From Verrucomicrobiota bacterium (GTDB taxonomy: Bacteria > Verrucomicrobiota > Verrucomicrobiia > Opitutales > Opitutaceae), in the NCBI GenBank assembly GCA_016222805.1, contig JACRQG010000012.1, positions 62,001 to 126,000 of the forward strand: 64,000 nt of DNA. Reading direction: 5' to 3'. Under the pieces are notes generated by a model, which saw only the letters and a list, made by a program, of their open reading frames with translations, did no database searches and was not told where the DNA came from. Positions 28,724 to 53,035 of the stretch are shown here, piece by piece; within the stretch, counting starts at the first letter, position 1; each line of letters opens with the position of its first letter. The position numbers were made by a program, and so were the translations under genes.

Positions 28724-28757
28724 GGGGAAAGGGAGCGCGACGGGGCGGGGTGGGCCG

Positions 28758-39173: not shown

Positions 39174-39220
39174 GACGAAGTTCGAATCGGGCGAGGTCAC
39201 CGGGGAGGGCACGCGGTGCT

Positions 39221-39403
39221 TCAGGCGGAACGGGACGAGAAGGCGGCCAGGAGGCCGAGGGTGCCGCCATAGAGAGCACCACGCCACCAGGTGGAGGTGA
39301 GAGGGCAGGTGCCGGAGGTGCATTGGCCGAAGGTGCCGAGCAGGGCCCCGAGGAGGGCGCCGCCCAGCACAGTAAGGGCGAAACGAAGCAGCGGGGAGTG
39401 CAT
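39221..39403 (-). CDS. Small membrane protein, DUF6132-like
   Basis: This 60-residue protein has two predicted helices, LLRFALTVLGGALLGALLG and WRGALYGGTLGLLAAF, joined by TFGQCTSGTCPLTSTWW with two cysteines. Such CxxxxC-type (QCTSGTC) small proteins recur beside rhodanese and YgaP-type genes. The ATG 39403 is the first start. It lies 20 bp behind the DUF2892 gene and is probably co-transcribed with it. Confidence 0.75.
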   Translation of the reverse strand: MHSPLLRFALTVLGGALLGALLGTFGQCTSGTCPLTSTWWRGALYGGTLGLLAAFSSRSA

Positions 39404-39423: not shown

Positions 39424-39654
39424 TCAAACCCCGGGTTTGCGGCCGCCCCAGTGGATGACGTCGCGGTCGTCGACCCAGCCGAGCTTGCGCAGGAGCAGGG
39501 AGGGCGGGCAGAAGCCGGTGAAGACCGACTGGATGAGATTGAGGCCGACGAAGGCGGGGAGCAGCAGCCACCAGGGGCTGACGAAGTGGGTGAGGGCGAC
39601 GCCGAGCAGCGTGACGGTGCCGGCGAGGAGGCGGACGAGGTCGTTGGTGGTCAT
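39424..39654 (-). CDS. DUF2892 (YgaP transmembrane-type) protein
   Basis: This 76-residue protein has hydrophobic LLAGTVTLLGVALTHFV and WWLLLPAFVGLNLIQSV, followed by FTGFCPPSLLLRKLGWVDD, the usual DUF2892 end. In YgaP of E. coli this domain is fused to a rhodanese. The start is ATG 39654, because the alternative at 39687 overlaps the operator region. It is the first minus-strand gene of the divergent pair with arsR. Confidence 0.82.
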   Translation of the reverse strand: MTTNDLVRLLAGTVTLLGVALTHFVSPWWLLLPAFVGLNLIQSVFTGFCPPSLLLRKLGWVDDRDVIHWGGRKPGV

Positions 39655-39669
39655 GGGAGGGATTTGTGG

Positions 39670-39700
39670 TTGACTAAACATGCGCATATACTCATATACT
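39670..39700 (+). promoter_or_regulatory. arsR promoter with overlapping operator
   Basis: A -35 TTGACT (39670-39675) and -10 TATACT (39695-39700) are 19 bp apart. Between them lies TGCGCATATACTCATATA (39681-39698), matching 15/18 positions of 33613-33630. It lies between the DUF2892 start (39654, minus strand) and the arsR start (39708), so it may control both directions. The predicted transcription start is near 39707. Confidence 0.7.
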
Positions 39701-39707
39701 TGAAACT

Positions 39708-40070
39708 ATGTCAAGCGCCTGTTTGCTGTCCCGCATGGCCAAGAAGCTTCCCTTGTCCGACGATGCCCTGGAGATGGTGGCACGACGCTTCGCCGTGCTG
39801 GCGGAGCCGATGCGGCTGCGGCTGATCCAGAACCTGTTCGAGGGGGAGAAGAACGTGAACGCGCTGGTGGAGGCGACGGGTGGCACGCAGGCGAACATTT
39901 CGCGGCACCTCCAGACCCTGACGCAGGCCAGCGTGCTGGCCCGGCGGAAAGAGGGCCTGCAGGTCTTCTATTCGATCGCGGATCCGTCGATCTACCGGTT
40001 GTGCGAGCTGGTGTGCGGCTCCCTCGAGAAACAGGCGGTGCGACAGGCGGAGGCGTTCGGGACGGACTGA
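39708..40070 (+). CDS. ArsR/SmtB-family transcriptional regulator
   Basis: This 120-residue winged-helix repressor has FAVLAEPMRLRLIQNLFEGE, helix-turn-helix NALVEATGGTQANISRHLQT and VLARRKEGLQVFYSIADPS. Cysteines occur in the last helix (YRLCELVCGSL), where some family members bind metals or sense thiols. The start is ambiguous: ATG 39708 would be nearly leaderless given the predicted transcription start; ATG 39735 (MAKKLPL) has a 27-base leader. Operators at 39681 and 33613 suggest it represses both the efflux genes and the FadL operon. The inducer is unknown. Confidence 0.9.
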   Translation: MSSACLLSRMAKKLPLSDDALEMVARRFAVLAEPMRLRLIQNLFEGEKNVNALVEATGGTQANISRHLQTLTQASVLARRKEGLQVFYSIADPSIYRLCELVCGSLEKQAVRQAEAFGTD

Positions 40071-40127: not shown

Positions 40128-40730
40128 TCAGCGCCAGGATGTGCTCGCGGGCGGAAGATCGGTGGGCGAGTTGAGGTTCGCCAGGATACCGGCGTCGGCC
40201 GCCGGCACCTCCAACGGGAGAATGGCGCCGGCCTCCGCCGCGGCTTGGAGCAAGGGCTGCAAGGCCCGACTTCCTTCCTGGCGATAACATCGGGCACGGG
40301 GGAGCAGCCCCCGCGGATACACCGCCGCCAGCGGTTCCCAGCGGCCCTGGCAGCGGGGGACGACGCCGACGCCGGGCGACGCACCTCCCAGCAGGCGGCC
40401 GAGAAACGCCGGCGTCATGGCGGGCATGTCCACGGCGAGGACCAGCACAAGGGGAGTCGTGGCCGCGGCCAGCACCGCGATCAGCCCCCCGAGGGGTCCC
40501 TCGTCCGGCACGTCGTCGAAGACGACGCGTGCCTCCGCCACCGCGTAATCGGTTTCGGGACGACCAGAAATCAGCAGTTCCGCCGGGCCAAGGGCGCGCA
40601 GCGTCGCCACCTGGTGGTCAATCAGGCGTCGCGGGGGAAAGGGCAGGAAGGCCTTGTCCCGCCCCATCCGCGTTGACCGTCCGCCTGCGAGCACGGCCGC
40701 GGTCCACGGCGGCTGCGGCCCGGGGTTCAC
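40128..40730 (-). CDS. mobA: MobA-like molybdenum cofactor guanylyltransferase
   Basis: This 200-residue enzyme opens with WTAAVLAGGRSTRMGRDKAF, the NTP-binding signature of MobA, then DEGPLGGLIAVLA and VLAVDMPAMTPAFL with the catalytic Asp. It adds GMP to molybdopterin to make the bis-MGD form used by the PsrA-like enzyme at 53035. The start is GTG 40730, which overlaps the MOSC stop (GTGA). The gene sits in an ArsR-MOSC-mobA operon. Confidence 0.9.
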   Translation of the reverse strand: MNPGPQPPWTAAVLAGGRSTRMGRDKAFLPFPPRRLIDHQVATLRALGPAELLISGRPETDYAVAEARVVFDDVPDEGPLGGLIAVLAAATTPLVLVLAVDMPAMTPAFLGRLLGGASPGVGVVPRCQGRWEPLAAVYPRGLLPRARCYRQEGSRALQPLLQAAAEAGAILPLEVPAADAGILANLNSPTDLPPASTSWR

Positions 40731-41251
40731 GGCGGCAGCGGCGACGTGGGAGGTGGCGTCGCGCGCGTCAGCCAGCCATCGGTGAGGATGCGGGCGCGGA
40801 GGCCGCCCCGGCCGCGCAACCAGGCGTTGGCGCCGGGACCGATGGCGCCGTCCATCCAGTAGCAGGGCCGGCATTCCTCGGTACCGAGGAACCGCACCCC
40901 TTGGACCTGGAATTCCATCCCCACGAGGGCGCCGAGATCGACGCCGGAGACGAGGACGTTGCGACGGGCCGCCTCGGGGCGGGCCTCGGGCAGGCCGAGT
41001 TCGCGACGCAGGGCTTCCAGGACCTCGCGGGAGAAGAAAGTGATCTGGCCCTTGTAGTCGGGCGCGTGGTCGAAGAAGCGATCCCCCCGGATGCCGCGGC
41101 CGGCGACGCATTCGAGGCGGTCCACCTCCACCGTTGGTTGCGTGCCGGCGGGGCCGCCGTGGTGGCCGAAGAAATTGTGGCCGGGTGACAGGAAGAGACG
41201 CTCGACCACGAGCGGTGGCGGTCCGGGAAGGTCGGAGGCCGGCGAGCTCAT
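40727..41251 (-). CDS. MOSC domain protein
   Basis: This 174-residue protein has FLSPGHNFFGHHG, GRGIRGDRFFDH and LVSGVDLGALVGMEFQVQGV. FLGTEECRPCYWM holds the conserved cysteines. MOSC domains carry sulfur or bind the molybdenum cofactor; stand-alone ones are poorly understood. It is coupled by ATGA overlap to the ArsR-rhodanese gene and by GTGA overlap to mobA, which suggests a role in cofactor sulfur chemistry for the molybdoenzyme. Confidence 0.88.
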   Translation of the reverse strand: MSSPASDLPGPPPLVVERLFLSPGHNFFGHHGGPAGTQPTVEVDRLECVAGRGIRGDRFFDHAPDYKGQITFFSREVLEALRRELGLPEARPEAARRNVLVSGVDLGALVGMEFQVQGVRFLGTEECRPCYWMDGAIGPGANAWLRGRGGLRARILTDGWLTRATPPPTSPLPP

Positions 41252-41946
41252 GCCGGGCGGGACTGCACCAGGGGCTGGTGGCCGGGCGATCGACTGTGCG
41301 GCAGGCCGGCTGCGGCCCAGTCCTTCACCCCTTCGTTTAGGCGCAGGGCGCGAATCGAGCGGGCGGCGAGCTGCTGCTGCGCGTTGTCACCCAGCAGGCA
41401 ATAGGGCCCGCGGCAGTACAGCACGACCAGTTTGTCCTGTGGCAGTTCGCCTACGCGCTCGATCAGCTCCCCGAGAGGAATGGAAATCGCGCCGGGTAGG
41501 TGATCGGCATCGTATTCCTCCCGCGGTCGCACGTCGACCAGCACCACGGAGCCCTTCTGGAGAAGGTCGGCCAGCGCTTCGCGGCTGATGGTGCCGCCGC
41601 GCTGGCTGCGCTGGGCGGCGAGGCCGGCGTAAAGCTGCTGGAGTTCGGCCAGACGCGTGGCGCTGTAGTCACGATACTGCAGCCAGAAGGTCTTCACCGA
41701 CTCGTCGGCAATCCCGTAGGCGACATGGCGACCCAGCCGGCGGGTGGCGACCAGGTTCGCCTTCTTCAGCAGTTGCAGGTGATGGGAGACGTTGGCGACG
41801 GGTTGCTGCATGACCTCGGCCAGATCCTCCACCGTGCGATCACACTGGCAGAGGAGATGAAGGAGGCGGAGGCGATGGGGGCTGGCGAGGACGTGTCCCA
41901 GGGTCGCGATCAGGTCGAAGGGAGCCTGGGGATCGTCGGTCTTCAT
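41248..41946 (-). CDS. ArsR-type regulator fused to a rhodanese domain
   Basis: This 232-residue protein has an ArsR winged helix at residues 1-100 (ASPHRLRLLHLLCQCDRTVE, QPVANVSHHLQLLKKANLV) and a rhodanese domain at 115-215. In the latter, VVLVDVRPREEYDADH and the active loop VVLYCRGPYCLLGDN hold two cysteines. Fusion of a DNA-binding repressor to a sulfurtransferase suggests sulfane-sulfur sensing. Its gene starts an operon with MOSC and mobA. A TCAAACG site is about 40 bp upstream (41986-41992). Confidence 0.9.
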   Translation of the reverse strand: MKTDDPQAPFDLIATLGHVLASPHRLRLLHLLCQCDRTVEDLAEVMQQPVANVSHHLQLLKKANLVATRRLGRHVAYGIADESVKTFWLQYRDYSATRLAELQQLYAGLAAQRSQRGGTISREALADLLQKGSVVLVDVRPREEYDADHLPGAISIPLGELIERVGELPQDKLVVLYCRGPYCLLGDNAQQQLAARSIRALRLNEGVKDWAAAGLPHSRSPGHQPLVQSRPA

Positions 41947-41985
41947 GCAGGTGGCGGAGGATCAGCGGAGAATTCGGAGGCGACG

Positions 41986-42000
41986 TCAAACGCTCGTTCG
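41986..42000. promoter_or_regulatory. Possible operator, TCAAACG motif upstream of ArsR-rhodanese
   Basis: TCAAACGCTCGTTCG is a partial inverted repeat (TCAAACG / CGTTcG). The same heptamer occurs in the porin promoter (43949-43955, minus strand) and before the molybdoenzyme (53063-53069). It could be the binding site of the ArsR-rhodanese protein for self-control. Confidence 0.35.
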
Positions 42001-42080
42001 GACCGGCGGCGGCCGGCGCAGACAAAGCAAAGGGCGCGGGGCGTCCGTTGGCGGAGCCGCCGCGCCCGGGAGCTGGCATG

Positions 42081-42099
42081 GGTGGCGCGGCGCGCCACC
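42081..42099 (-). terminator. Hairpin after the ExtJ-like gene
   Basis: GGTGGCGC, loop GGC and GCGCCACC form a perfect 8-bp stem 8 bases after the stop codon at 42107 on the minus strand. No T-tract follows, so it may stabilise the 3' end or work as a weak terminator before the ArsR-rhodanese gene. Confidence 0.45.
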
Positions 42100-42106
42100 G
42101 GTGGAC

Positions 42107-42445
42107 TCAGCAGCCCGCGGTGGGCTTGCCCTTGCTGAGCTTGTACGATTCGCCTGCCTTCATGTCCTTGGCCATGGCGGACTGCATCGTGACGACCTTG
42201 CCATCGATGGCGGTGACCTTGGCGCCGCGGAGCACGAGCGTGCCCTTCTCCGACACGGCCCGGACGTAGGCGCCCTTCTTGAGCCAGGAGGCAAGGTCGC
42301 CACTGATCTCGACCTTGACGGTGCTGCCGGTGACCGCAGTCACCTTGGCGGTGGAGATTTCCTCTCCCTTGGCCGCGTCGGCGGCGGGGAGCGGGGCGAG
42401 CGCGAGGAGGGCGGCGGCGAGGAGGGCGAACAGTTTTTTGATCAT
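42107..42445 (-). CDS. Small exported protein, ExtJ-like (tentative)
   Basis: This 112-residue protein has a signal peptide (MIKKLFALLAAALLALAPLP) and a small beta-rich mature domain with two repeated TAVTGSTVKV / TAIDGKVVTM segments, ending KGKPTAGC. It lies 39 bp behind the porin gene, as ExtJ follows ExtI in Geobacter selenite/tellurite loci; the resemblance is recalled, not computed. The terminal cysteine is notable. It could be a periplasmic plug or partner of the porin. Confidence 0.65.
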   Translation of the reverse strand: MIKKLFALLAAALLALAPLPAADAAKGEEISTAKVTAVTGSTVKVEISGDLASWLKKGAYVRAVSEKGTLVLRGAKVTAIDGKVVTMQSAMAKDMKAGESYKLSKGKPTAGC

Positions 42446-42484
42446 GGTGATGTTGGTTGGAGGGAGGTGGAGAGGAGGGGGAGA

Positions 42485-43807
42485 TCAGAAGGCGACCTGG
42501 AACATGGTGCGCAGGGAGGTATTGGCGGTGTTGGTACCGACCGAGGAGGTGACGGTGCCGTTGGCGAAGGCGGTCGGCTTGGCGAACTTGTTGCGCTGGT
42601 ACTCGACGGTGAGGCGGACGTTGTTGTTGCCGGTGATGTACCAGTTGAAACCCACGGCGCGCTGCTTGATGTTCTGCTCGGTCACGCCGGAGATTTGGGC
42701 AAAGTCCCAGTCCTCGTGGTAGGCGTAGGGCTGCAGCTTGCCACGCTTGCCGATCGTGATCGGGAGGATGTAGCCGCCGCGCACGTACCAGCCTTCCTTC
42801 TGTCCGTTGAGGCCGCCGATGTTGGCCAGCCGGTCGCCGGGGTTGAAGTTGGTCCGGTAGGCGTCGTCGAAGTGGTTCTTGAGGTAGGCGGAAGTGAGGG
42901 TGTAGGTGCCGGTGGAGGTCGGGTATTCGAACAGGACGTCGGCGGTGAAGGCGGTGTAGTCGACGGTTTCCTTGTTCAGCACGACGCCGGCGGAGCTGAC
43001 GTTGCGGTACACGGCGGAGGGTTCGTAGATGCCGCCGATGCCGAAGGTGAGGACCTTGAGTTCGCCGAGGTAGGAGCCTTCGTAGCCGGAGGCGGCCTCC
43101 TTATCGAGGAACGAGTAGTGCACGCGGCCGACGTACATGAAGTTCTCATTCGGGGTCGGGCTGGAGGTCACGGAGGCCAGGGTGAAGGGGTGGGTCATGC
43201 GGGTGACGCCCTCCCGTCCCTGGAAGACCGAGGCCTGATAGACCACCCGGCCGTCGGCGAGGCGACCCCAGGACGTGACTCCGATGTCGCGGCTGGTCTT
43301 GGCGGGAACGGTGCCGTACGCGGAGAAGATGAACGCGGAACGGTCGATGCCGAGCGGATCGAAGCAGCCATCGAGGTTGCCGCGGGTCAGCGGGATCTTG
43401 GTGAGGCCGATCTTGAAGTTCAGCCAGTCGGTGTAGTTGGCGATGAAGTAGCCGTCGTGGAGGCGGATGTCGCCGTCGTTCGAGTCCGTGTCCTGGGCGG
43501 AAACGCCATATCCGGTCGAGCCGGTCTTGGTGGAACTCGTGATGCTGGTGGTGTTGATTTGAAAGCCGTAGGTCTCGTCCATCATGCCGGTGAGGGTGAG
43601 GCGGAAACGGGCAAAGCGGAGGTCGGTGCGGTTGCCCTCAAACGCGGTGCCGGAGCCGTAGTCGGTGTTTTCGGCCAGGAGTTGGCCCCGGAGTTTCACC
43701 TCGAGGCTGATCATGTTGCCTTCGATGATATTGGCGGAGGACGGCAGGGGCGCCGACAGGATGGCGAAGCCGGCGAGTGCGGCGAGTTGGGTGCGAAGCG
43801 GTTTCAT
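42485..43807 (-). CDS. Outer-membrane porin, ExtI-like (tentative)
   Basis: This 440-residue beta-barrel has a signal peptide (LAALAGFAILSAPLPSSA), a first strand LEVKLRGQLLAENTD and long alternating strands throughout. It ends TSLRTMFQVAF, with the C-terminal Phe of outer-membrane proteins. Segments FKIGLTKIPLTRGNL and YVRGGYILPI resemble phosphate-selective or oxyanion porins. In ext loci such a porin is paired with cytochromes for selenite/tellurite reduction; here the multiheme cytochrome is encoded next door at 44651. It has a candidate operator 140 bp upstream. Confidence 0.8.
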   Translation of the reverse strand: MKPLRTQLAALAGFAILSAPLPSSANIIEGNMISLEVKLRGQLLAENTDYGSGTAFEGNRTDLRFARFRLTLTGMMDETYGFQINTTSITSSTKTGSTGYGVSAQDTDSNDGDIRLHDGYFIANYTDWLNFKIGLTKIPLTRGNLDGCFDPLGIDRSAFIFSAYGTVPAKTSRDIGVTSWGRLADGRVVYQASVFQGREGVTRMTHPFTLASVTSSPTPNENFMYVGRVHYSFLDKEAASGYEGSYLGELKVLTFGIGGIYEPSAVYRNVSSAGVVLNKETVDYTAFTADVLFEYPTSTGTYTLTSAYLKNHFDDAYRTNFNPGDRLANIGGLNGQKEGWYVRGGYILPITIGKRGKLQPYAYHEDWDFAQISGVTEQNIKQRAVGFNWYITGNNNVRLTVEYQRNKFAKPTAFANGTVTSSVGTNTANTSLRTMFQVAF

Positions 43808-44650
43808 GGATGTTCTGGCGGTAGTTTGCGCCCCAGGGGTGGTGTCTCGGAGGCCTGGCGCGAGAGGAGGCGACGGGCCCGAGGTGAAGGCGGCTTGTCG
43901 ACGGGCGGCATCGGCAGGACGGACGTTCACCGACACAAAAACAACTATCGTTTGAATGTAAGACAATGTGAATCCAGGACGCCTTCTCATCTATCATACT
44001 TATAGGGTTTGTGGGAAAGTCAGGCTTATGAATCGCAAGCAGAAAACAAGAGAATCTGATTAGATGTGTGTGTTAAGAGTAGTCTTAAGTAGATTGTTAC
44101 TAATTTTATATGGATAACATGCTAATCCCGGGTTTGTCGGACCAATCTCTAGATGCGGGCTCCACTTCCTGCCGCGGTGGTGTGCGCGACCTTCCTCCGC
44201 GTATGGGGCGGGTTCATTCCGGAATGCCGTTTTTCGGGACGAATTCTCCTATTAAACAAACAATCAAGCGAAACTTGAAATAAGCCCATTCCGGAATCAT
44301 CACCAAGGGCGCAGTGAACAGCTTGATCGGGCGAATCGCGTGGTGCCGAACCGCCCTCGGTTGCGGCCCATGGACCAATCTGGATTCACTCCCGCAGATT
44401 TCTCCTCACCCCAGGGGGGCCCTCCTCCCTCGTGGCTCCTCGCCCACTGTCGGGCGCCGCCGCAGCGCCGAACCGCGGCCACTCCTCGCCCGCGTGCCGT
44501 TGCGGGCGCGGCGACGCGACACGGCCTCTGCGCGGCCGCAGTCTTCCCTGTGCTGGGCGATGGCCCTCCGGTTTTCCCGAGGCTTCGCCGCCCGGGATGA
44601 TGGGGCTCCTCCGTGCTCCCCGACGAAATGGACACATCTCCCGGGTGCGC
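43808..44650. other. 843-bp intergenic region with AT-rich island and repeats
   Basis: No convincing gene is present; short ORFs here are GC-rich shadows. It holds a markedly AT-rich stretch (about 43930-44300), unusual in this genome. Notable items: TCAAACG/ACATTCAAA site at 43949-43960; a possible -10 TATGAT for the porin at 43993-43998 (minus strand); a hairpin TTAAGA-GTAG-TCTTAA at 44073-44088; and two copies of CATTCCGGAAT around 44215 and 44287. The multiheme cytochrome ends at 44651, so the region separates it from the porin. Confidence 0.55.
43945..43960 (-). promoter_or_regulatory. Candidate operator upstream of the porin gene
   Basis: Read on the minus strand: TACATTCAAACGATAG. The core ACATTCAAA recurs at 53074-53083 (with TTTGAATGTA on the plus strand) and 53253-53261, and TCAAACG at 41986 and 53063. 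It lies about 140 bp before ATG 43807, close to a possible -10 at 43993-43998. Confidence 0.45.
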
Positions 44651-47359
44651 TCAATCCGGCCAGGAAGGCACGCGACAGCTGGAGGTGCGGCGGCCAAGTA
44701 CCGTCGCGAAGTCGGCGATGGCCTCCTGCATCAGGTTCGAGGAACCGTCGTGGCAGGTCAGACACGCCCCAACCGTCAAGATGCGACGTTGCTCCGCGGC
44801 GTTGAAGGGTCGGACATCGTCGCGCGTGGACACCAGACCAGTCCGGGTTTGCAGAAACCCAGTCCAGGCATCGCCGGGAAGCTGATCGTGGGCGGTCCGT
44901 GCGTTCGCCGGGGAAAACGACCAGCGCGCCGCACCGGAAGTGAGATCAAGCCGCAGGTCCCCCTGGCCATAACCGAGGGCCGCGGGGTCATTGTGGCACG
45001 ACTGACAGGAACGCGACTCGCGGCTGATGGTGTGCGCGGCGGTATGGGCGTAGAGCCGCTGGAAGATCAGGTCGCGCGGGGCACCGGCCTCGCGGTTCCG
45101 ATCAAGTTCGAGGATCATGCCTGGGACAAACGTGTCGACGATCTCGGCGGGCGACGCCGGGTCCCCGGTCATCCGTCGAATGCCGAGGGTGGGAGGTGCG
45201 GCTTCGAAGGGACCGGAGCTTTCCACCCAGCTGCCGCGGACCTCCTGCTGGCTCAAGTGGTCGAAGCCGGTCTGCGTCGGATCGAACTGGGTATGGCAGG
45301 TGACGCAGCGCGGAGCCCACGCGGTGTGGCAACTCGCACACGAAAGCCGGTCGTGTCCCTTTCCCGCCCGGCACGCGCCGGACGGCGCCCGCAAGGGAAG
45401 GAAGTCGCCGGTGCGTTTGCGGCGGAGCTGGCCGGTGCCGTCGGGGGCGACCACCACGTTGTTCAGCGCCGATCCCGCCTGCGTGCTGCCCAGGCGAAAG
45501 CCCGGTGGCAGCGACCATTGGGACTTGCGCCGGACCATCCGGCCGCTGCCCATGACCTCGGTGGGAGTGTGGCAGTCGATGCAATCGAGCCCGCGCACGT
45601 GATGCACGTCGGGCGAGACGCGGATGAAATGGCGGCCGTCGTCCAGGAGCCGGAATCGGGGCGAGACGCTGGAGTCGCGACCCAGCGCGGCGGCGGAGGG
45701 AGGTTCCCGGAGTTCGTGCCACCCTTCGTAGCTGGTCGAAATCCGACCCGAGCGGCTGTGGCAGCCGAAACAGTGCCCATTTTCCGGATTGAGAATGAGG
45801 GAGGGGTGTTCGCCGGGAAGCGATGCCTGCCGTTGTCCGGCCGGTGCGGACTCGAACCGATCGAGGGCCTGCTGGGCGGCGGGCGAGTACACGAGGTGGC
45901 AGGCATTGCAGCCACCGCCGCGGGACTCCTGGGTGATCGGCCCCCAGGTGACCTTGTCCTGGCCGAGATGACAGGAAACGCAGAGCTGCCGGAGGTGGCT
46001 GTCGGCGGCGCTGTGACCGAGTCGCTGCACGTGAGGGACGGAGTCGTCCGGGGTGGAGGTCTCGCCGAAGATGCGGCGGTTGACCTCGATCACGCCGGAG
46101 AACGTCGCCATGATCGAGCGATCCACGCGGCGCACGACCTCCGGGTGGCAACCCGTGGTGCCGCACGTGCGCGGGGCGTCGGCGAGGTTTCCCGGAACGC
46201 GAATCAGGGAGGCGTGGGCGCGTTCGGGATCGAGCGAAGTGGTGTCGCCGGCGTGGCAAACGGCGCAGCCGATGGCTTCGGGGCGGTGCGAGACACCGAG
46301 ACCTGCGACGCGGCTGTGGCAGACGAGACAGCCTTCCGGCCGGCCTCGAGCCTCGGGAACGCCGCGAGGGTTCGGTGCTTCGGCTCGAAATGTCGCCGCG
46401 ATGAGGCCGGGTCGCCAGTCTCCCCGGTCGACCGGCCAGCGCCAACGGCGGGTGTCGGGTGGACCCGGCGCCACAGTTCCCCAAATGACGAGGGCAAGCA
46501 GGCCGGCGGCCAGGCCCAGCAGGGTTCCTCGCACTCGGGCCTGAGTCCGGTCCGCGAACCGGGGCAATGCCCACCAGCACCAGAGGAACGCGAGCCCCAG
46601 CGTAACCGCCAGGAAGGTCGAGGGCACGAGGTGCAGGAAGGCTCCAACTCCCGCGAGCACCCACGGTCCTGACACGGTCCCGTCCAGTCCGTCGTTCAGG
46701 CCCGGCGAAAGGAGCATCGCCACGAGCAGCGTCAGCGCGCCGGTGCTGATCAACGGAGTGAGGCGGGGGCGGTGCGGGCGGGCCGTCGCAGCCAGTCCAA
46801 TCCCGACGAGAATCACCCCGCCCCAGACATGGCCCAATAACACCGGCGTGAGGTCCTCAACGGAGTCGCGCCAGCGGGCGGCTACGGGCGGACCCACGAC
46901 CGGCAGCTCCGCGATCAACTGTGTCGCCAGCGGGAGGGAGGCCTGGGCATCGGCGTCACCCCGCAGGAGGAACCCGGAAAGCTGGAGCAGGACGGCGAGC
47001 GGGACCGCCAGCACGAGGACAGCCCGGAGTGCGCTTCCGGGCCGGATGCCGTTCTCCGGCAGGAGTCGGCGCCAGGTGAACCACGCGGTGGCGACCGTTG
47101 CGGTCAGCGCCGACCACGCGTGGAGATTGCGTGCCAGGAGGAGCAGAGGATCCCCGAGGAGCCAGAGTGCGATCGTGGCGGGAGCGCGGCGGGCGTCATA
47201 CGCGCTGTGCAGGGCGATTCCGGAAAGGGCGCAAATGGCAAGGGACGCGGCCGCCACCTCCCCGGCGCTGCCCCCGGCCACGCGCGTCCACGCCTGGCGC
47301 AACCAGGCACCCTTCGGGTGCCGTTCGATTCCAGTGGTGCGTCCGGAGGTCAGCGGCAT
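44651..47359 (-). CDS. Cytochrome b fused to undecaheme cytochrome c
   Basis: This 902-residue protein joins an N-terminal membrane cytochrome b (about residues 30-295) to a periplasmic multiheme domain (340-870). Candidate b-heme ligands are His51, His80, His177 and His243. Eleven c-heme sites follow: ten CxxCH (ending at His348, 369, 464, 488, 534, 597, 678, 689, 789 and 870) and one CGTTGCH (399-405). The order suggests quinol oxidation on the membrane side feeding a long heme wire. Separate b-type and c-type cytochromes occur in ext loci; a fusion is unusual. It has no signal peptide apart from the membrane helices. Confidence 0.88.
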   Translation of the reverse strand: MPLTSGRTTGIERHPKGAWLRQAWTRVAGGSAGEVAAASLAICALSGIALHSAYDARRAPATIALWLLGDPLLLLARNLHAWSALTATVATAWFTWRRLLPENGIRPGSALRAVLVLAVPLAVLLQLSGFLLRGDADAQASLPLATQLIAELPVVGPPVAARWRDSVEDLTPVLLGHVWGGVILVGIGLAATARPHRPRLTPLISTGALTLLVAMLLSPGLNDGLDGTVSGPWVLAGVGAFLHLVPSTFLAVTLGLAFLWCWWALPRFADRTQARVRGTLLGLAAGLLALVIWGTVAPGPPDTRRWRWPVDRGDWRPGLIAATFRAEAPNPRGVPEARGRPEGCLVCHSRVAGLGVSHRPEAIGCAVCHAGDTTSLDPERAHASLIRVPGNLADAPRTCGTTGCHPEVVRRVDRSIMATFSGVIEVNRRIFGETSTPDDSVPHVQRLGHSAADSHLRQLCVSCHLGQDKVTWGPITQESRGGGCNACHLVYSPAAQQALDRFESAPAGQRQASLPGEHPSLILNPENGHCFGCHSRSGRISTSYEGWHELREPPSAAALGRDSSVSPRFRLLDDGRHFIRVSPDVHHVRGLDCIDCHTPTEVMGSGRMVRRKSQWSLPPGFRLGSTQAGSALNNVVVAPDGTGQLRRKRTGDFLPLRAPSGACRAGKGHDRLSCASCHTAWAPRCVTCHTQFDPTQTGFDHLSQQEVRGSWVESSGPFEAAPPTLGIRRMTGDPASPAEIVDTFVPGMILELDRNREAGAPRDLIFQRLYAHTAAHTISRESRSCQSCHNDPAALGYGQGDLRLDLTSGAARWSFSPANARTAHDQLPGDAWTGFLQTRTGLVSTRDDVRPFNAAEQRRILTVGACLTCHDGSSNLMQEAIADFATVLGRRTSSCRVPSWPD

Positions 47360-47413
47360 GGTGCGTCCGGAGGCGATGGTGGTTCGGTGGACCCGGAAAC
47401 GATAAAGCGACGA

Positions 47414-48676
47414 TCAACACCCCTCGCGTTTCTTCTTGGCGACCGGGGCGGCGGATTTGCTACCGGGAGTGGTGGCGGGTGTCGGCGGGGGACCGAGGTT
47501 TGACGGAGGCTCCGGCGTCCCGACCGCGGCGCCGCGGGGGGAACCGCCCAGGTGGCGGGCCACGGCCACGCGCCGGGCAAACGCCGCGTTGGCGGATGGA
47601 GTTTCCTCCGCCGGGGCGGCCGGAAAAAGAACCTCGTGATTCCAGGCGTCGAGTCCTCCGGCAAGGGTATAGACGGCCTTGAAGCCCTGTGCCTTCAGGA
47701 GCACCCAGGCCTGGGCGGCCTGGGCCTCACTGGCGGCGTAAAGGACGAGCTTCTCGGTTCGCGGCACGATCGTGTCGTCCAGGGAGGCCAGCGGTACGTG
47801 GCGGGCGCCGGGAATCCGGTGTCGGGCGTACTCGGCTTCGCTGCGGAGATCGACCAACACGAAGTCGGCGCGGCCTTCGATGATCCAGGCCCCCAGATCC
47901 TCGGCCGTCACCTGATCGACGGCGGATCCGGCGAGTTCGGCGAGCCGGCGGGCGTCGAGCCTGACGCGTCCCTCGCGATAGGGATTGCCTGCGACGGCGG
48001 CGACCAGGCCCAGTCCGAGCAGACCGGCGACGAGTCCGCGGGCGGGATTCAAGGGACGCGGCGAACCGAGGAGCGATCCGGGTCCCGGCTCGACGCCGCC
48101 GAGCTTCCGTTCCGCCCATTCGGCGGCGACAAAGGCACCGATTGCCAGCACCACGACCGCCAGCACCACCACGCCATGGGGCAGGTGGAGGACGGCCGGC
48201 AGCGTGCGCGCGCCGAAGGCGGTGAGGGAGGCAAGGGGTGCGAGCACCGGGGAGGCGAAGCCGATCGCGAGGGTGCCCGCGAACATGCCGCCGAGGAAGA
48301 CCACGGCGTCGAGGCGTCCGGTGGCGGCGGATACGACGGAGGTGCCCGGACAGTAGCCGCCGATGACAAAGCCAATCCCGAGCAGCACCCCGCCGAGGAG
48401 CTGCGGCACGAGGAAAGTCGGGGTGAGGTGGACCAGCGAGAGGTCGACGAGCCCGAAGCGCGAGACGACATACAGTCCGGTCATCGCCGTGAGGATGGCG
48501 GTGAACATCACCTTCAGGACGGAGAGATCCTTGAAGTAGAACTGCGCCGTGAGCTTGCGGGCACTGCCGAAGCCGGCGCGTTCGAGGAAGAAGCCGAAGG
48601 CGAGACCGATGACGAAGGCGACGATCAGCGAGGTTTCGTCGTTGAAGGCGCCAAATCGGAAGAAGGGGGCGTTCAT
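47414..48676 (-). CDS. YeeE/YedE sulfur transporter fused to a degenerate rhodanese
   Basis: This 420-residue protein has YeeE/YedE helices to about residue 235, with GFVIGGYCPGTSVVSAATGR holding the conserved cysteine of the thiosulfate-type transporters. A rhodanese domain follows (about 250-360), VLVDLRSEAEYARHRIPGA, but the active-site position reads LVLYAASEAQAA with no cysteine. The tail is Pro-rich and ends KKKREGC. Start ATG 48676 (third codon of the longer ORF) has GGAGG 8 bases upstream and overlaps the preceding stop by ATGA. Confidence 0.85.
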   Translation of the reverse strand: MNAPFFRFGAFNDETSLIVAFVIGLAFGFFLERAGFGSARKLTAQFYFKDLSVLKVMFTAILTAMTGLYVVSRFGLVDLSLVHLTPTFLVPQLLGGVLLGIGFVIGGYCPGTSVVSAATGRLDAVVFLGGMFAGTLAIGFASPVLAPLASLTAFGARTLPAVLHLPHGVVVLAVVVLAIGAFVAAEWAERKLGGVEPGPGSLLGSPRPLNPARGLVAGLLGLGLVAAVAGNPYREGRVRLDARRLAELAGSAVDQVTAEDLGAWIIEGRADFVLVDLRSEAEYARHRIPGARHVPLASLDDTIVPRTEKLVLYAASEAQAAQAWVLLKAQGFKAVYTLAGGLDAWNHEVLFPAAPAEETPSANAAFARRVAVARHLGGSPRGAAVGTPEPPSNLGPPPTPATTPGSKSAAPVAKKKREGC

Positions 48677-49203
48677 AGCCATTGCCTCCGGACAAACCAG
48701 GCGAAGCCGTAGGCCCCGCCGAAGATGCAGACCATCGCCGCCCAGCTGCCGGCGTTGAGCAACGCCCCGCCGGTGAGCGCCTGCCCGCTCATGCAGCCGA
48801 GGGCGAGCTTGGCCCCCATTGCCAGGATGGCTCCGCCGACAAAGGCAAGGAGGAGCCGACGCGGGGTGGAGAAGTGCGGACCCTTCTCGACGGTGACGCG
48901 CAGGCGATTGCCGAAGGCCCCCGAAAGGAGGCCGCCCACGAAGACCCCGATCACCTGGAACACGAGCCAGTCCTTGAAGGGGCTGATGGAACCGTCCCCG
49001 AGATAGTCGCTGAAGAACGGACTGGCCCCGGCGTACGCCGGGGCGACCGTCCGGACGGCGACGGCCGCCGTGGTGGTCACGGCTCCGGAGGCCCCGAGGC
49101 CGCGGCCCATGATGACAAACGCCGAGAGCAGCACCAGACCCAGGCCGAAGCCGGCGAGGTAGGGATTGAGGTAAGGTTTGGGAGGCGCCGAAGGAGCAGA
49201 CAT
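48673..49203 (-). CDS. YeeE/YedE family sulfur transporter
   Basis: This 176-residue protein has four to five helices and KLALGCMSGQALTGGALL, with the motif cysteine of the YeeE/YedE family. These are thiosulfate or sulfur-compound importers. The half-size form pairs with another half (the next gene). The ATGA overlap with the fusion gene suggests coupled translation into one complex. It lies 30 bp behind the NrfD gene. Confidence 0.87.
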   Translation of the reverse strand: MSAPSAPPKPYLNPYLAGFGLGLVLLSAFVIMGRGLGASGAVTTTAAVAVRTVAPAYAGASPFFSDYLGDGSISPFKDWLVFQVIGVFVGGLLSGAFGNRLRVTVEKGPHFSTPRRLLLAFVGGAILAMGAKLALGCMSGQALTGGALLNAGSWAAMVCIFGGAYGFAWFVRRQWL

Positions 49204-49233
49204 GGGAAGGAAGACAGGGAGAGGGGGCTGGGC

Positions 49234-50286
49234 TTACGGGAGCGAGGCGACGCGCGCCCAGTGGCTTTCCTGGCCGGCGAACACCAGGATGAAGCGCAGG
49301 GTGAGTCCGCCGACCAGGACGAGCACGGCGGGCGCGAGGGTGTGGCGGATGCGGTTCTGCAGTTCGAGATACTGGAGCGTGAGCGGAGCCAGGATGCCGC
49401 TGCCGATTACGAGGACCCAGAACGGGGCCGCGTAGGGGCCCGTGAGGAGCAGCGCGGCGGCCTGCTGGCTGGCGGCGGTGGAACTCACCATGCCGAGGAG
49501 GAACAGGATGAGCAGGCCCAGTTCGACGGTAAGAAAACTGTTGTCCGCCTGGGTGAGCAGCGGGGCGATGCGGGTGTCGGGGGCGCGGCCCTCGGACCAG
49601 CGGGCGAGCGAGGAGAGCAGGAAGTCGGCAAACGCCGGCCGCTCGCCATCCTTGAAGGACAGCACGAGGATTCCGTGGAGCAGGGCGGCGGCGGTCGAGA
49701 GCCCGGAGAACAGGAAGAGCGGCCCGAGGATGGCGGTGTTCCAGAGGGGGCGGGCGGGGAGGGCGCTGAGGAGAATGCCGGTGTAGAGACCGAGGGCCAC
49801 GCCGACGACTATGTTGGCGAGGCCGATGCCGATCACCACCCGGGGCCGGGCGAGAATGAAGTCACTGATCGCGACAAACGCGTGAAACCGTCGGGCGACC
49901 GAGGGAATCGCCTCGGGCAGGTGCGTGAGGGCGTTGGCGAGCAGGGCCGGGTAAACCAGCAGCAGGATCCACGATCCCCACGACATCGGCGACGTGATCT
50001 GGAAAGTGAGATAGAGTCGCCAGACGTAGAGCTTGTGGGAGAGGTCGAGAAAGAGCGCGAGCATCCCGAGGCTCAGCAAGGTCAGTCCCACCAGCGGGCC
50101 AATCGTGCAGCAGACCATCGCCTGTCGTTCGCGGGGCTGGACGAGCACCAGGCGCACCCCGGCGATGATCATCAGGCCGGCGACGAGGCCGCCGAGGAAA
50201 AGGTACACCGGGATCTCCCAGCCCCAGACATGCAGTGTGGGATCGATGCCGGGGTTATGGCGGGTGGTGGTGAGTTCGATCGGCAT
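49234..50286 (-). CDS. NrfD/PsrC-type membrane subunit
   Basis: This 350-residue protein has about nine helices, starting GWEIPVYLFLGGLVAGLMII, the standard NrfD opening. The motif WGSWILLLVYPALL and GLSTAAALLHGILVL follow. It anchors the FeS subunit and exchanges electrons with quinone. It starts 15 bp after the FeS gene in the order PsrA-PsrB-PsrC. Confidence 0.92.
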   Translation of the reverse strand: MPIELTTTRHNPGIDPTLHVWGWEIPVYLFLGGLVAGLMIIAGVRLVLVQPRERQAMVCCTIGPLVGLTLLSLGMLALFLDLSHKLYVWRLYLTFQITSPMSWGSWILLLVYPALLANALTHLPEAIPSVARRFHAFVAISDFILARPRVVIGIGLANIVVGVALGLYTGILLSALPARPLWNTAILGPLFLFSGLSTAAALLHGILVLSFKDGERPAFADFLLSSLARWSEGRAPDTRIAPLLTQADNSFLTVELGLLILFLLGMVSSTAASQQAAALLLTGPYAAPFWVLVIGSGILAPLTLQYLELQNRIRHTLAPAVLVLVGGLTLRFILVFAGQESHWARVASLP

Positions 50287-50300
50287 GGCGGAAGGCGGGC

Positions 50301-50834
50301 TCAGGTGAGGTAGAAGACATGGGGCTGGCAGCCGGCCTCGGGCAGGAGCGCGTGGTGGGCACGCGAACGCAGCAGGCGGCTGACTTCGCTCTCCGGGTTG
50401 TCGAGATCCCCGAAGTGCATGCAGTGCGTGGGGCAGACCGAGACGCAGGCCGGCAGCTGGCCCTGGTCCACGCGGTGATGGCAAAAGGTGCACTTGTCCG
50501 CGTAGCCGTCGGGATGGGTGAAGCGCGCATCGTACGGGCAGGCGGCGAGGCACGCCTTGCAGCCGATGCACTGCCGGTGCGCCACGAGGACGACACCGCC
50601 TCGGTGGACGCGACTGGCGCCGGTCGGGCAGCACGAGACACACGGCGGCCGGGCGCAGTGATTGCAGCGCTCGGAACGGATTTCGAGCCGCGGCTGGGGG
50701 TAGGCGCCGCGCACCTCCTCGGTGATCCAGTCGCGGTTGTAGCCTTCCGGGACGTTGTTTTCCGTCTTGCAGGCGACGACGCAATCCATGCAGCCGACGC
50801 AGCGACGGGTGTCGATGACCATGACGTAACGCAT
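50301..50834 (-). CDS. Four-cluster ferredoxin subunit (PsrB/PhsB-like)
   Basis: This 177-residue protein binds four [4Fe-4S] clusters: CVGCMDCVVAC, CNHCARPPCVSCCP, CIGCKACLAACP and CTFCHHRVDQGQ with LPACVSVCP. It carries electrons between the molybdoenzyme and the NrfD subunit. ATG 50834 is 2 bases after the molybdoenzyme stop, which fixes it over the long shadow start at 51518. Confidence 0.93.
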   Translation of the reverse strand: MRYVMVIDTRRCVGCMDCVVACKTENNVPEGYNRDWITEEVRGAYPQPRLEIRSERCNHCARPPCVSCCPTGASRVHRGGVVLVAHRQCIGCKACLAACPYDARFTHPDGYADKCTFCHHRVDQGQLPACVSVCPTHCMHFGDLDNPESEVSRLLRSRAHHALLPEAGCQPHVFYLT

Positions 50835-50836
50835 GT

Positions 50837-53035
50837 TCAGGCCCGCTCCGCGGGTTCGAGGGTGACGAAATTGACGTTCATGGCGGTGCCGCCCATGAGC
50901 GGGTCGACCTTGTAGCGGGTGATGAGCTGCGCGTCGCTGGCTCCTTTTCCGAAGGCATGCCGGAGGCCGCGGGCGGTATGGCCGAAACCGTGGACGAGGT
51001 AGACGCAATCGGGGCGGATCCTCTCCGTCGCCTTGACACCAACCGCATGGCTGAGCACGCCGTCCTGGTTGCGCAGGCGCACGCGGTCGCCGCTCTTGAG
51101 GCCGAGGCGCCGGGCGGCGGCGGCATTCACCCAGACGGCATTCTCGCTCATCATGTCGCTCAGCACGCGGTTGGTGTGGGTGCGACTGAAGGTATGGACC
51201 GGGGCGCGTCCGAAGAGCAGGCGGAACGACCCGGGCGGGCCGGCCTCGGGCCGGGTGAACTTCGGAACGGGATCGAATCCGGCTTGCTGGAGCTGGTTGG
51301 AGTAGAATTCGATCTTGCCGGAGGGCGTGCCGAACTCGGCTGGAGCACCGTCCTCGAAATAAAGCGGTTCGCGCGGACCCCGGATGAGTCCGTGCTTCTT
51401 CAGTTCCGCGAAATCGAGGCCGGCCTCCTTCACCCGGGCGCCCAGGTACTCCTCGATGTCCTTCCAGGGATAATACGATTCGAGGCCGAGTTTCACGGCG
51501 AGCTGGCGGGCAATCCACCAGTTCGGTTTTTGGTCGTGCGGCGACGCGATGACCGGCTGGCGCAGGGCGACGAAGGGCTCCTTGAACACCTCGACGTTCA
51601 GCTCATCGTGCCGCTCCAGGTAGGTGGACTCCGGCAGCACGACGTCGGCCCAGCCGGCGGTCTCGCTCGGCACCACGTCGATGACGACGAGCAGGTCGAG
51701 TTGCTGGATGGCGCGAATCGTCTCGGCTTCGCTGGGCAGCGCCTGGAGGAGGTTGGTGGCGTAGACGAGCCAGCCCTTGATGGGGTACGGCTGCCCCGTG
51801 AGGGTGGCTTCGCGAATGCCGGTCGTGAGGGTCTCGTGGGCGAAGCGGTACTTGTGGTCGGGGTTGTCGACCTTGGGCCGCTTCGCCTTCGGGTATTCCG
51901 GGTAGGGATAGTCGGGCACGGCCATGGTCGACGGCGCGTAGAAACCTCCCTTGCGACCCCAGCTGCCGAGCAGGGCGTTCAACAGGGCAAGGGCGCGGCT
52001 GCGCTGCGCATCGTCGCCATACCAGTTGGTGTGGCGGCCGGGGTGGACCAGGGTGGCCGGTCGATAGCGGGCCATCTCGCGGGCGGTGGCGCGGATGAGG
52101 GCAGGGTTGATGCCGGTTTCCGGATAGGCCCATTCCGGGGTCCAGGGAGCCAGGGCGGCCACGAAGGCCTCGAAGCCATGCCCGTGTTTCGTGACGTACT
52201 CGACGTCGTAGAGCTTCTCCGTCACGAGCACGTTCATCCAGGCCAGGATGAGGGCCAGGTCCGTGCCGGGCTTGATCGGCAGGTAATACTTGGCCTTGCC
52301 GGCGGCAACGGAGAAGCGGGGATCAACCACGATGAGAGAGGCGCCACGGCCGACGGCGGTGGCGAACTCCTGCACCTGGGTGTTGTGCATGTTCTCCCCG
52401 AGGTGGGACCCGATCAGGACGAGGCACTGGGCGTTCTCGATGTCGGTGCGTTCCGGGGAGCCGATGTCCTCGCCGAAAGTGAGACGGAAGCCGACGTCGC
52501 GCGGGCCGCGGCACTGCGCAAAGGACGGGGCGGCGATGTTGGGGGAGCCAAACGCCTTGAGGGTGTGTTTCAGAAAAGTGCCACCGATGCCGTGACTGAA
52601 CAGCGCCATCGCCTCCGGCCCATGGGTGGCGGCGATCTTCTTCATCTTCTCGGCGATATGGGTCAGGGCCTCCTCCCAGGTGGCCTCCTTCCACTTCTCC
52701 GCGCCGCGTTCCTGCGTGCGAATCAACGGCGTGCGCAGGCGATCCGGGTCGGTAAGGGCGCCAACTCCGCCCGTTCCCCGTGGGCAGAGGCGACCCCGGC
52801 AAAGTGGGTCGAGGGGATTGCCTTCCAGCTTCCACAGGCGTCCCTCCCGCACGGTCGCGATGCAGCCGCATTTCCAGAAGCAAATGTCACAAAAAGTGGG
52901 GACCTGGCGAAGGCCGGATTCCCCGGTCGCCCCGGAAGTCCGAGCCAAGGCGGCGAGGGAGCTCCCGGCTGCCCCGGCCGTGACGATCGAGGCGGAGGAG
53001 ATCTTGAGGAAGCGACGGCGGGAAAGCTCAGGCAT
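50837..53035 (-). CDS. Tat-exported molybdopterin oxidoreductase (PsrA/PhsA-like)
   Basis: This 732-residue periplasmic catalytic subunit has the twin-arginine signal SRRRFLKISSASIVTAGAA. The [4Fe-4S] site is Cys49, Cys52, Cys56 and Cys84 (C-x2-C-x3-C-x27-C). Cys175 in SFAQCRGPRDVGF is the likely molybdenum ligand, as in polysulfide/thiosulfate reductases. IGSHLGENMHN and HPGRHTNWYGDD are cofactor-binding regions. Substrate could be polysulfide, thiosulfate, tetrathionate, selenate, arsenate or similar; sequence alone does not decide. ATG 53035 is chosen over a TTG at 53059. With 50301 and 49234 it forms a PsrABC-like complex. Confidence 0.9.
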   Translation of the reverse strand: MPELSRRRFLKISSASIVTAGAAGSSLAALARTSGATGESGLRQVPTFCDICFWKCGCIATVREGRLWKLEGNPLDPLCRGRLCPRGTGGVGALTDPDRLRTPLIRTQERGAEKWKEATWEEALTHIAEKMKKIAATHGPEAMALFSHGIGGTFLKHTLKAFGSPNIAAPSFAQCRGPRDVGFRLTFGEDIGSPERTDIENAQCLVLIGSHLGENMHNTQVQEFATAVGRGASLIVVDPRFSVAAGKAKYYLPIKPGTDLALILAWMNVLVTEKLYDVEYVTKHGHGFEAFVAALAPWTPEWAYPETGINPALIRATAREMARYRPATLVHPGRHTNWYGDDAQRSRALALLNALLGSWGRKGGFYAPSTMAVPDYPYPEYPKAKRPKVDNPDHKYRFAHETLTTGIREATLTGQPYPIKGWLVYATNLLQALPSEAETIRAIQQLDLLVVIDVVPSETAGWADVVLPESTYLERHDELNVEVFKEPFVALRQPVIASPHDQKPNWWIARQLAVKLGLESYYPWKDIEEYLGARVKEAGLDFAELKKHGLIRGPREPLYFEDGAPAEFGTPSGKIEFYSNQLQQAGFDPVPKFTRPEAGPPGSFRLLFGRAPVHTFSRTHTNRVLSDMMSENAVWVNAAAARRLGLKSGDRVRLRNQDGVLSHAVGVKATERIRPDCVYLVHGFGHTARGLRHAFGKGASDAQLITRYKVDPLMGGTAMNVNFVTLEPAERA

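Follow-up and report, generated by a model that had tools for sequence, protein, structure and literature searches.

A Verrucomicrobiota locus joining PsrABC to an ExtI-type outer-membrane channel and Gly-Cys-tailed proteins, a proposed variant of sulfur/chalcogen respiration

Results

Gene content of the PsrABC-ExtI locus

We analysed a 64,000-nucleotide stretch from a Verrucomicrobiota bacterium of the Opitutaceae (assembly GCA_016222805.1, contig JACRQG010000012.1, positions 62,001 to 126,000), hereafter the window, which encodes a PsrABC-like molybdoenzyme together with an outer-membrane channel of the ExtI family. Genomes are labelled with G-numbers and loci with L-numbers; the 7.9-Mb genome of origin is G000 and the window is G000:C27:62001-126000. 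The original prediction, made from the letters alone, had placed here PsrABC, two YeeE/YedE transporters, a cytochrome b fused to eleven c haems, a porin with a small exported partner, an ArsR-rhodanese regulator, MOSC and MobA. Every one of these genes was found on the minus strand between 53,035 and 40,128, where it had been placed or a few bases away, and family matches bear out PsrABC, ArsR-rhodanese and MOSC on one strand within 12 kb. The order of transcription is PsrA, PsrB, PsrC/NrfD, a YedE half, a YedE half fused to a rhodanese, the cytochrome, ExtI, ExtJ, ArsR-rhodanese, MOSC and MobA (Table 1).

No intergenic gap between PsrA and the cytochrome exceeds 54 bp, 843 bp separate the cytochrome from ExtI, and 160 bp follow ExtJ. 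Because the 843-bp gap precedes ExtI, the ExtI, ExtJ and ArsR-rhodanese genes may form a unit separate from the PsrA-to-cytochrome genes. Three frames of one strand of this gap were read for a hidden ExtKL or selenocysteine gene and gave nothing convincing. Open reading frame calling was prone to antisense frames in GC-rich DNA (ExtI-ExtJ, FadL-SQR and PsrC in the window, most of L051) and overlooked the ExtJ genes of the window, L009 and L033; the key genes therefore rest on tblastn and family scans.

PsrA belongs to a lineage of sulfur and selenite reductases

The Psr genes have the make-up of PsrABC/PhsABC, namely a molybdopterin subunit with a Cys ligand, an iron-sulfur subunit and an NrfD membrane subunit. 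By eye, PsrA carries a signal resembling those of twin-arginine translocation (Tat), RRRFLK, and its Mo-ligand Cys lies in a QCRG context. The nearest solved structure is Thermus thermophilus PsrA (2vpw, 730 bits; the next one gives 213), and the NCBIfam ArrA model gives 146.5 bits for a cut-off of 1600. In a tree of 27 PsrA rows, with five distant rows (L002, L003, L079, L082 and L083) left out, the window groups with L024, G029, G059 and G045 at 88/87 support, and the smallest strongly supported set containing it has 13 rows. The ExtIJ-adjacent PsrAs require three changes on this tree, two of them forced by well-supported branches. Equivalents of His145, Cys173 and Arg332, which we take to have catalytic roles, are retained in 24/24 environmental cluster rows, as is QCRG at the Mo ligand; the corresponding residues are LCTA in T. 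thermophilus PsrA, TCPA in E. coli plasmid PhsA and LCLA in a second Geothrix enzyme. Polysulfide, thiosulfate, selenite and archaeal S0 reductases share one lineage in published phylogenies (PMC10100899), so that the PsrA sequence alone cannot name the substrate.

ExtI resembles a substrate channel

ExtI reached 279 bits with NF040900 (curated cut-off 150). Its small neighbour reached 47.2 bits with NF040942, under the curated cut-off of 52.5, and has in common with ExtJ its position beside ExtI and its -GC end. The kinship with ExtI/ExtJ of Geobacter, raised in the original prediction, is thus established for the channel, and the small protein is best called ExtJ-like. A model of ExtI based on 24 sequences (predicted local distance difference test, pLDDT, 72.7; medium quality) has about 16 main strands. 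Its best folds were OprO (E 6.7e-14, template modelling (TM) score 0.57) and OprP (E 9.2e-14, TM 0.55), both with a root-mean-square deviation above 9, followed by many general porins, and the model suggests that ExtI could be an OprP/OprO-like substrate channel. In classical porins the constriction loop lies between strands 5 and 6. The strand 5-6 loop of ExtI holds Cys148, which is invariant in the 24 sequences and is the sole mature Cys in seven of them, the others having one or two more; Geobacter ExtI is reported with one cysteine (PMC5877670).

A second set of ArsR-rhodanese, ExtI (286 bits) and ExtJ genes, this one without PsrABC, lies elsewhere in the same genome (G000:C44, L009:7906-10776), in the neighbourhood of genes for an ArsR, an ArsP-family permease, a thioredoxin-MerB-like protein and an FMN-reductase-like protein.

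Several unrelated cluster proteins end in Gly-Cys

All 52 ExtJ copies read end in Gly-Cys: that of the window, those of 22 of the 24 other loci examined, and 29 further copies, 14 of which have a second Cys eight residues before the end. No credible ExtJ was seen in L042 or in L045, which ends inside ExtI, and the 29 copies come from 30 further loci, since L127 gave no frame where ExtJ should lie. The rhodanese attached to YedE in the window has the fold (59.7 bits) and lacks the catalytic Cys. Ala or Ser replaces this residue in 7/7 rhodaneses attached to or following YedE, and all seven have a Lys-rich EGC end; the same query retrieved 26 other rhodaneses from the phylum, and a comparison of their last residues showed none ending in GC. 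Overall, 30 of the 814 called proteins of the loci end in GC (21 ExtJ-type, 5 cluster rhodaneses, 3 DUF3373 partners and 1 Lys-rich peptide) and all fall in these four cluster families, with 0/784 among the others; since members of one family are not independent, these counts stand for four families.

The Lys-rich peptides lie directly after PsrB at L091:13186-13401 (71 residues) and L092:6843-7073 (76 residues, below the length limit of the 814-protein count), have a signal-like start and end in Ser-Gly-Cys. In L034 a second ExtJ-like gene (4454-4792, 29% to that of the window), also with a -GC end, is found near a LysR gene upstream of PsrA. A Gly-Cys-selenocysteine end of ExtJ was rejected because its stop codon varies (TAA, TAG, TGA), and ExtJ and the DUF3373 partner were not detectably related (hhalign probability 4%). 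We found no mention of the ExtJ terminal cysteine in the open-access literature; ExtJ and cysteine both occur in two papers, PMC5877670 and PMC13130476, the passages of PMC5877670 at hand are silent on an ExtJ cysteine, and the word cysteine is absent from PMC6148476. The same tail on several unrelated cluster proteins suggests a shared way to hand sulfur from protein to protein, and may be more novel than the rest of the locus.

The YedE pair and a partly degenerate b/c cytochrome

Both YeeE/YedE genes are present; instead of encoding two transporters, they correspond to a single PF04143 fold split in two, with the second half fused to the rhodanese. Such a pair exists in the window, L024, L049-L051, L093 and L094; the YedE-rhodanese gene of L024 (5013-6275) has one in-frame stop in the public contig.

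The cytochrome contains ten CXXCH motifs and one CX4CH, which confirms eleven c-haem sites, and its N-terminus resembles cytochrome b6 when searched as a profile built from 6 relatives (best E 6.2e-9). The N-terminal domain is also weakly ExtP-like and the remainder ExtM/ExtN-like, every match being below cut-off, so that the proposed check against ExtM and ExtP models gives relatedness, not membership. All five aligned relatives hold one more c haem, within a 37-residue stretch deleted in the window cytochrome. The full form with b domain is found in L024, L034 and L035, with an adjoining Rieske gene in L024 and L035, and the cytochromes of L049 and L094 show no b domain. Compared with the three full forms, each haem-b pair of the window cytochrome is missing its second His, and the ligands of one b haem only are kept. 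The interval between YedE-rhodanese and cytochrome is too small for a Rieske gene, and a Rieske search of the own genome, run without a positive control, was empty at E 0.01. No second multihaem protein is present in the window locus, and the predicted structure of the cytochrome was unusable (pLDDT 36.6). From its sequence, a working quinol:cytochrome complex appears unlikely in the window, because the second His of the b pairs and a c haem are gone and there is no room for Rieske; the cytochrome is probably an electron store or a side branch rather than a working bc complex.

The same genome has another molybdoenzyme cluster with four-haem and eight-haem cytochromes (L013, G000:C23, 7297-12651), whose MOSC protein is 66% identical to that of the window.

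PsrA adjoins ExtI in four phylum-level groups

Three ExtI sequences used as queries against named genomes yielded 22 loci in Verrucomicrobiota, Gemmatimonadota, Acidobacteriota (with Geothrix) and Geobacter/Desulfuromonas-type bacteria; with the window, L009 and L010 (G038) this makes 25 ExtI loci. Lacunisphaera, Candidatus Didemnitutus and Opitutus are the named carriers of the closest ExtI relatives. PsrA adjoins ExtI in 14/25 loci from four phylum-level groups (the window, L010, L024-L027, L029 at a contig end, L030-L032 and L034-L037). A PsrA relative at E 1e-60 or better occurs in 17/22 ExtI genomes, compared with 4/387 phylum genomes, own included, at E 1e-100, a rough contrast since thresholds and phyla differ. 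ArsR-rhodanese, ExtJ and PsrC are all present in the six Verrucomicrobiota loci with PsrA (window, L010, L024, L025, L026 and L030), and relatives of the MobA-like protein adjoin Psr genes in L025, L026, L030 and L050. The complete set (PsrABC, YedE pair, b/c cytochrome, ExtI, ExtJ and ArsR-rhodanese) recurs in one other locus only, L024. ExtI over cut-off was restricted to the own genome and G038 among 95 relatives, was found in 0/26 other genomes of the genus, and among 387 genomes of the phylum was seen in the own genome alone, seven further genomes having distant barrels under the cut-off.

The partners of PsrA vary. Its membrane subunit is NrfD in Verrucomicrobiota and of cytochrome b561 type in Acidobacteriota (L034), and Gemmatimonadota L027 has none next to PsrA. 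G029, G059, G045 and L024 have a FadL gene immediately upstream of PsrA, and L024 holds ExtI as well. The genes ahead of PsrA in the Geobacter-type loci L085, L087 and L091 encode a DUF3373 porin, a small protein and a triple-rhodanese protein (families scanned in L085 only). Since ExtI, FadL and DUF3373 each adjoin PsrA, three outer-membrane channel families are tied to the same reductase. The LysR regulator of 14 ExtI loci also lies upstream of a porin-less PsrABC in L086 and L088 (73% identity). Because parts of the gene order recur in other genomes, the grouping is more than chance. The porin and the small protein belong with ExtI/ExtJ and co-occur with PsrAB(C) elsewhere, so neither unrelated families nor a lack of co-conservation speaks against the grouping put forward in the original prediction.

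Acidobacteriota and Geobacter-type ExtI loci L029, L035-L041, L044 and L045 lie near ArsP-family and/or Acr3 genes, with ArsM as well in Geothrix L035. The Geobacter-type ExtI loci L040 and L044 hold an RND pump related to that of the window (51-54%).

Sulfur genes extend the island to about 27 kb

To the left, beyond the range of the original prediction, the island continues to ~27 kb with genes that were masked by antisense frames and recovered by tblastn and family scans (Table 1). The sulfide:quinone reductase (SQR) matches the model of a selenoprotein subtype, and the window copy has ordinary codons. The RND-HlyD-TolC-YgaP-ArsR block adjoins the Psr cluster in G029, together with DUF6132, and lies ~20-26 kb from PsrA in G045; the divergent ArsR has relatives close to Psr genes in G029 and G460, and one at a distance of ~26 kb in G045. 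On the other side, upstream of PsrA on the same strand (53407-55071), an acyltransferase (FeeM/GNAT-like) is fused to a class V aminotransferase.

Table 1. Features of the island, in window coordinates
Feature	Coordinates	Strand	Evidence
PsrA-like periplasmic molybdoenzyme	50837..53035	-	Molybdopterin, Molydop_binding, Fe4S4 domains (Pfam); 2vpw 730 bits; tree and key residues
PsrB-like ferredoxin subunit	50301..50834	-	Fer4_11 78.8 bits
PsrC/NrfD quinol-binding membrane subunit	~49234..50289 (start inferred)	-	PF03916 127.9 bits
YeeE/YedE half, C-terminal half of PF04143 (positions 177-309)	48673..49203	-	
YeeE/YedE half, N-terminal half of PF04143 (positions 1-162), fused to rhodanese fold without catalytic Cys, tail KKKREGC	47414..48682	-	
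Cytochrome with b domain and 11 c haems in one chain, related to ExtP/ExtM/ExtN but under each cut-off	44651..47359	-	
ExtI outer-membrane channel, invariant Cys148 in strand 5-6 loop	42485..43807	-	NF040900; model
ExtJ-like small exported protein, only Cys is the last residue (-AGC)	42107..42445	-	NF040942, under cut-off
ArsR (HTH_5)-rhodanese regulator, catalytic Cys kept (YCRGPYC)	41248..41946	-	
MOSC-domain protein	40727..41251	-	PF03473
MobA-like protein	~40128..40697	-	Original prediction and by eye, no family-library scan
ArsR-family regulator, divergent	39735..40070	+	HTH_5
YgaP-like membrane protein	39424..39687	-	PF11127 33.9 bits
DUF6132 membrane protein	39221..39403	-	PF19628 97.3 bits
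TolC (start inferred), HlyD and RND efflux genes	33677..39200	-	
FadL/OmpP1/TodX outer-membrane channel	32096..33424	-	66% identical to FadL directly upstream of PsrA in G029
Type III SQR	30836..32065	-	NF049943 657.7 bits, over cut-off 525
DsrC/TusE-family sulfur relay protein	29787..30104	-	TIGR03342 87.4 bits, over cut-off 53.5; PF04358 110.7 bits
DsrE2-like sulfur carrier	29148..29654	-	PF13686 104 bits; NF047629 114.3 bits, under cut-off 210
Single-domain rhodanese	28758..29135	-	PF00581 40.2 bits
CoA-disulfide reductase (CoADR)-rhodanese fusion	27047..28921 (true start probably near 28723)	-	Pyr_redox_2 208 bits, Rhodanese 33 bits; TIGR03385 407 bits, under cut-off 579

Discussion

The locus as a whole appears to be a variant of sulfur/chalcogen respiration, and we found no description of its exact combination of genes in the open-access literature. 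Among the substrates first listed, the evidence favours the sulfur side, sulfide/polysulfide, over selenite and tellurite, because the wider island encodes SQR, DsrC, DsrE2, CoADR-rhodanese, FadL and a YgaP-type protein. Taking together the neighbouring genes, the membership of the Psr family, the rhodaneses and the carriers, we propose a sulfur island in which zero-valent sulfur would enter via ExtI/FadL, be carried on terminal-cysteine tails and be reduced by PsrABC. We give this reading an even chance; confidence in the substrate is only moderate because the terminal-thiol chemistry fits selenite and tellurite too.

According to this proposal, the zero-valent sulfur would be polysulfide, chains derived from S8 or other sulfane sulfur, of which ExtI would admit the anionic chains and FadL the hydrophobic forms. 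In the periplasm, sulfur would be taken up as a persulfide on the flexible terminal cysteines of ExtJ (-GC) and of the YedE-rhodanese (-KKKREGC), whose tail we place on that side of the membrane; such Lys-rich flexible thiol tails would suit the capture of polysulfide anions and their delivery to PsrA or YedE. Electrons would flow from menaquinol through PsrC and PsrB to PsrA, where sulfur would be reduced to sulfide, and part of the sulfur would pass via the YedE pair to the cytoplasmic carriers rhodanese, DsrE2 and DsrC. SQR could catalyse the opposite reaction, the re-oxidation of sulfide, and ArsR-rhodanese and the second ArsR would sense the sulfane pool. In Desulfurivibrio dismutans, a Psr operon with an exported triple-rhodanese protein is reported to be up-regulated when sulfur is disproportionated, and polysulfide import has been proposed for a porin encoded next to YeeE/YedE and sulfurtransferases (PMC12142623).

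Four other explanations have to be weighed. Respiration of selenite or tellurite, with an SrrA-like PsrA, ExtI/ExtJ admitting and handling the oxyanion and terminal thiols reacting with selenite or binding Se0/Te0, appears unlikely to us. It would account for the membership of the channel in the ExtI family, for the resemblance of its fold to the phosphate channel OprP and to OprO, for the presence of the selenite reductase SrrA in the PsrA/PhsA/SrrA lineage (PMC10100899), and for the reported phenotype of a Geobacter extI mutant on selenite and tellurite (PMC5877670). This phenotype may however be a side reaction, and the neighbouring SQR, DsrC, DsrE2-like, CoADR-rhodanese, YedE and rhodanese genes are sulfur genes. 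The machinery could also operate in reverse, PsrABC oxidising sulfide or polysulfide into the quinone pool, ExtI/FadL exporting the product and the bc-type cytochrome passing the electrons on, as would agree with the presence of SQR in the island, with the locus having two modules linked to quinone and with the Rieske gene beside the bc-type b domain of L024 and L035. Characterised Psr enzymes, however, reduce sulfur, and the window b domain is without the second His of both pairs, no Rieske gene having been found in the search above. The D. dismutans study agrees with the reductive direction (PMC12142623), and reverse operation seems to us quite improbable.

An outer-membrane electron conduit, running from quinol via the cytochrome and ExtI to the cell surface, is a part of the original prediction that is not supported, and we consider it very improbable in spite of the b/c fusion and the ExtM/ExtN kinship. 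MtrB has 26 strands, and an ExtI of about 16 strands that matches OprO/OprP would be narrow for a cytochrome plug; moreover, the locus has one multihaem protein, its b domain is partly degenerate without a Rieske partner, and the fused cytochrome with b domain occurs in only four of the 14 ExtI-PsrA loci (window, L024, L034 and L035). In favour of a conduit, a Geobacter strain with extHIJKL as its sole conduit cluster is reported to reduce Fe(III) oxide at up to 50% and Mn(IV) oxide at up to 75% of the wild-type level, and ExtI is described with 21 transmembrane domains in the same work (PMC6148476), at odds with the ~16-strand model; extI is, however, dispensable for Fe(III) citrate reduction (PMC5877670). 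Finally, an arsenic-related respiration, for instance of thioarsenates whose As-S sulfane bond PsrA would split, would fit ArsP-family and/or Acr3 genes near ExtI in 10/22 scanned loci (Acr3 in 7), an Acr3 fragment at the edge of L010, ArsM with Acr3 in Geothrix L035 and the ArsP-family permease that accompanies the second ExtI set of this genome. The window gave no ArsP, Acr3 or ArsC match, its PsrA is far under the ArrA cut-off, and the L036 protein of the ArsP family falls short of the cut-off of each named family that it matches, so that this explanation seems to us the most remote.

Besides the selenite/tellurite phenotype, the SrrA kinship, the oxide-reducing Geobacter strain and the arsenic genes just described, other points weigh against the sulfur island. 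PsrA missed the NCBIfam PhsA equivalog cut-off (511 bits for 694), and its clade may have another substrate than T. thermophilus PsrA or plasmid PhsA, because QCRG differs from LCTA and TCPA. Reading the flanks in G029, G045, G059, G038, G460 and G466 revealed no SQR, DsrC or DsrE2, which limits their link with Psr to the window. ExtI has no adjoining PsrA in 11/25 loci, and 5/22 ExtI genomes have no PsrA at E 1e-60. The ExtI model is of medium quality, its OprO match combining the TM of 0.57 with a root-mean-square deviation of 9.4, and the catalytic loop of the 26 control rhodaneses was not read.

A broader proposal, which we advance tentatively and with less than even confidence, is that Gly-Cys tails mark a novel class of chalcogen carrier in the periplasm, made up of at least four protein types (ExtJ, the Cys-less YedE-rhodanese, the small DUF3373 partner and the Lys-rich peptides after PsrB). 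All would use a thiol arm of a single residue to take zero-valent sulfur from ExtI, FadL and DUF3373 channels to PsrA and YedE, the Geobacter ext genes being primarily sulfur genes with selenite and tellurite as a side activity. If true, ExtI/ExtJ would gain a native role, and the impairment of the Geobacter extI mutant on selenite and tellurite a reason. How zero-valent sulfur passes the outer membrane is unsettled, and for sulfur-oxidising bacteria one paper states that experiments have yet to confirm which membrane proteins take part (PMC10045233). Here four phylum-level groups encode a reductase alongside a channel and a small candidate carrier whose terminal thiol does not vary, so that single-residue changes could probe the question.

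Compared with the Geobacter extHIJKLMNOPQS selenite/tellurite cluster, the window has an ExtI over cut-off, an ExtJ-like partner and a cytochrome related to ExtM, ExtN and ExtP. It differs in that no ExtH, ExtKL, ExtO, ExtQ or ExtS was seen in the locus and the ExtP/ExtM/ExtN relatives are fused instead of being separate genes, which sets it outside that cluster type and, like the ExtJ score under its cut-off, counts against the sulfur island, and in that PsrABC and YedE are added. D. dismutans likewise has Psr with an exported rhodanese, and a porin and YeeE/YedE proposed for polysulfide import; these are in separate loci there, and the text at hand contains neither ExtI nor a Gly-Cys tail (PMC12142623). 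With the MtrCAB/Pcc conduits the window shares a porin and a multihaem cytochrome in one locus. Those systems have a large cytochrome-plugged barrel and a surface cytochrome, whereas the window channel is modelled, at medium quality, with ~16 strands, no surface cytochrome is present and the single multihaem cytochrome has its own membrane domain.

PsrABC of T. thermophilus (2vpw) and the Psr-Sud system of Wolinella, in which Sud is the periplasmic sulfur-transfer partner, are similar in subunit make-up, Cys Mo-ligand, equivalents of His145 and Arg332, NrfD subunit and the presence of such a partner; the window has QCRG instead of LCTA, linked outer-membrane channels, and Gly-Cys-tailed candidate carriers instead of a Sud-type rhodanese. 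SoxY and DsrC, which are swinging-arm sulfur carriers, also hold a Cys on a flexible C-terminal tail. They belong to other families, and in the window-type tail, found on ExtJ, a Cys-less rhodanese and Lys-rich peptides, the Cys is the very last residue, after Gly.

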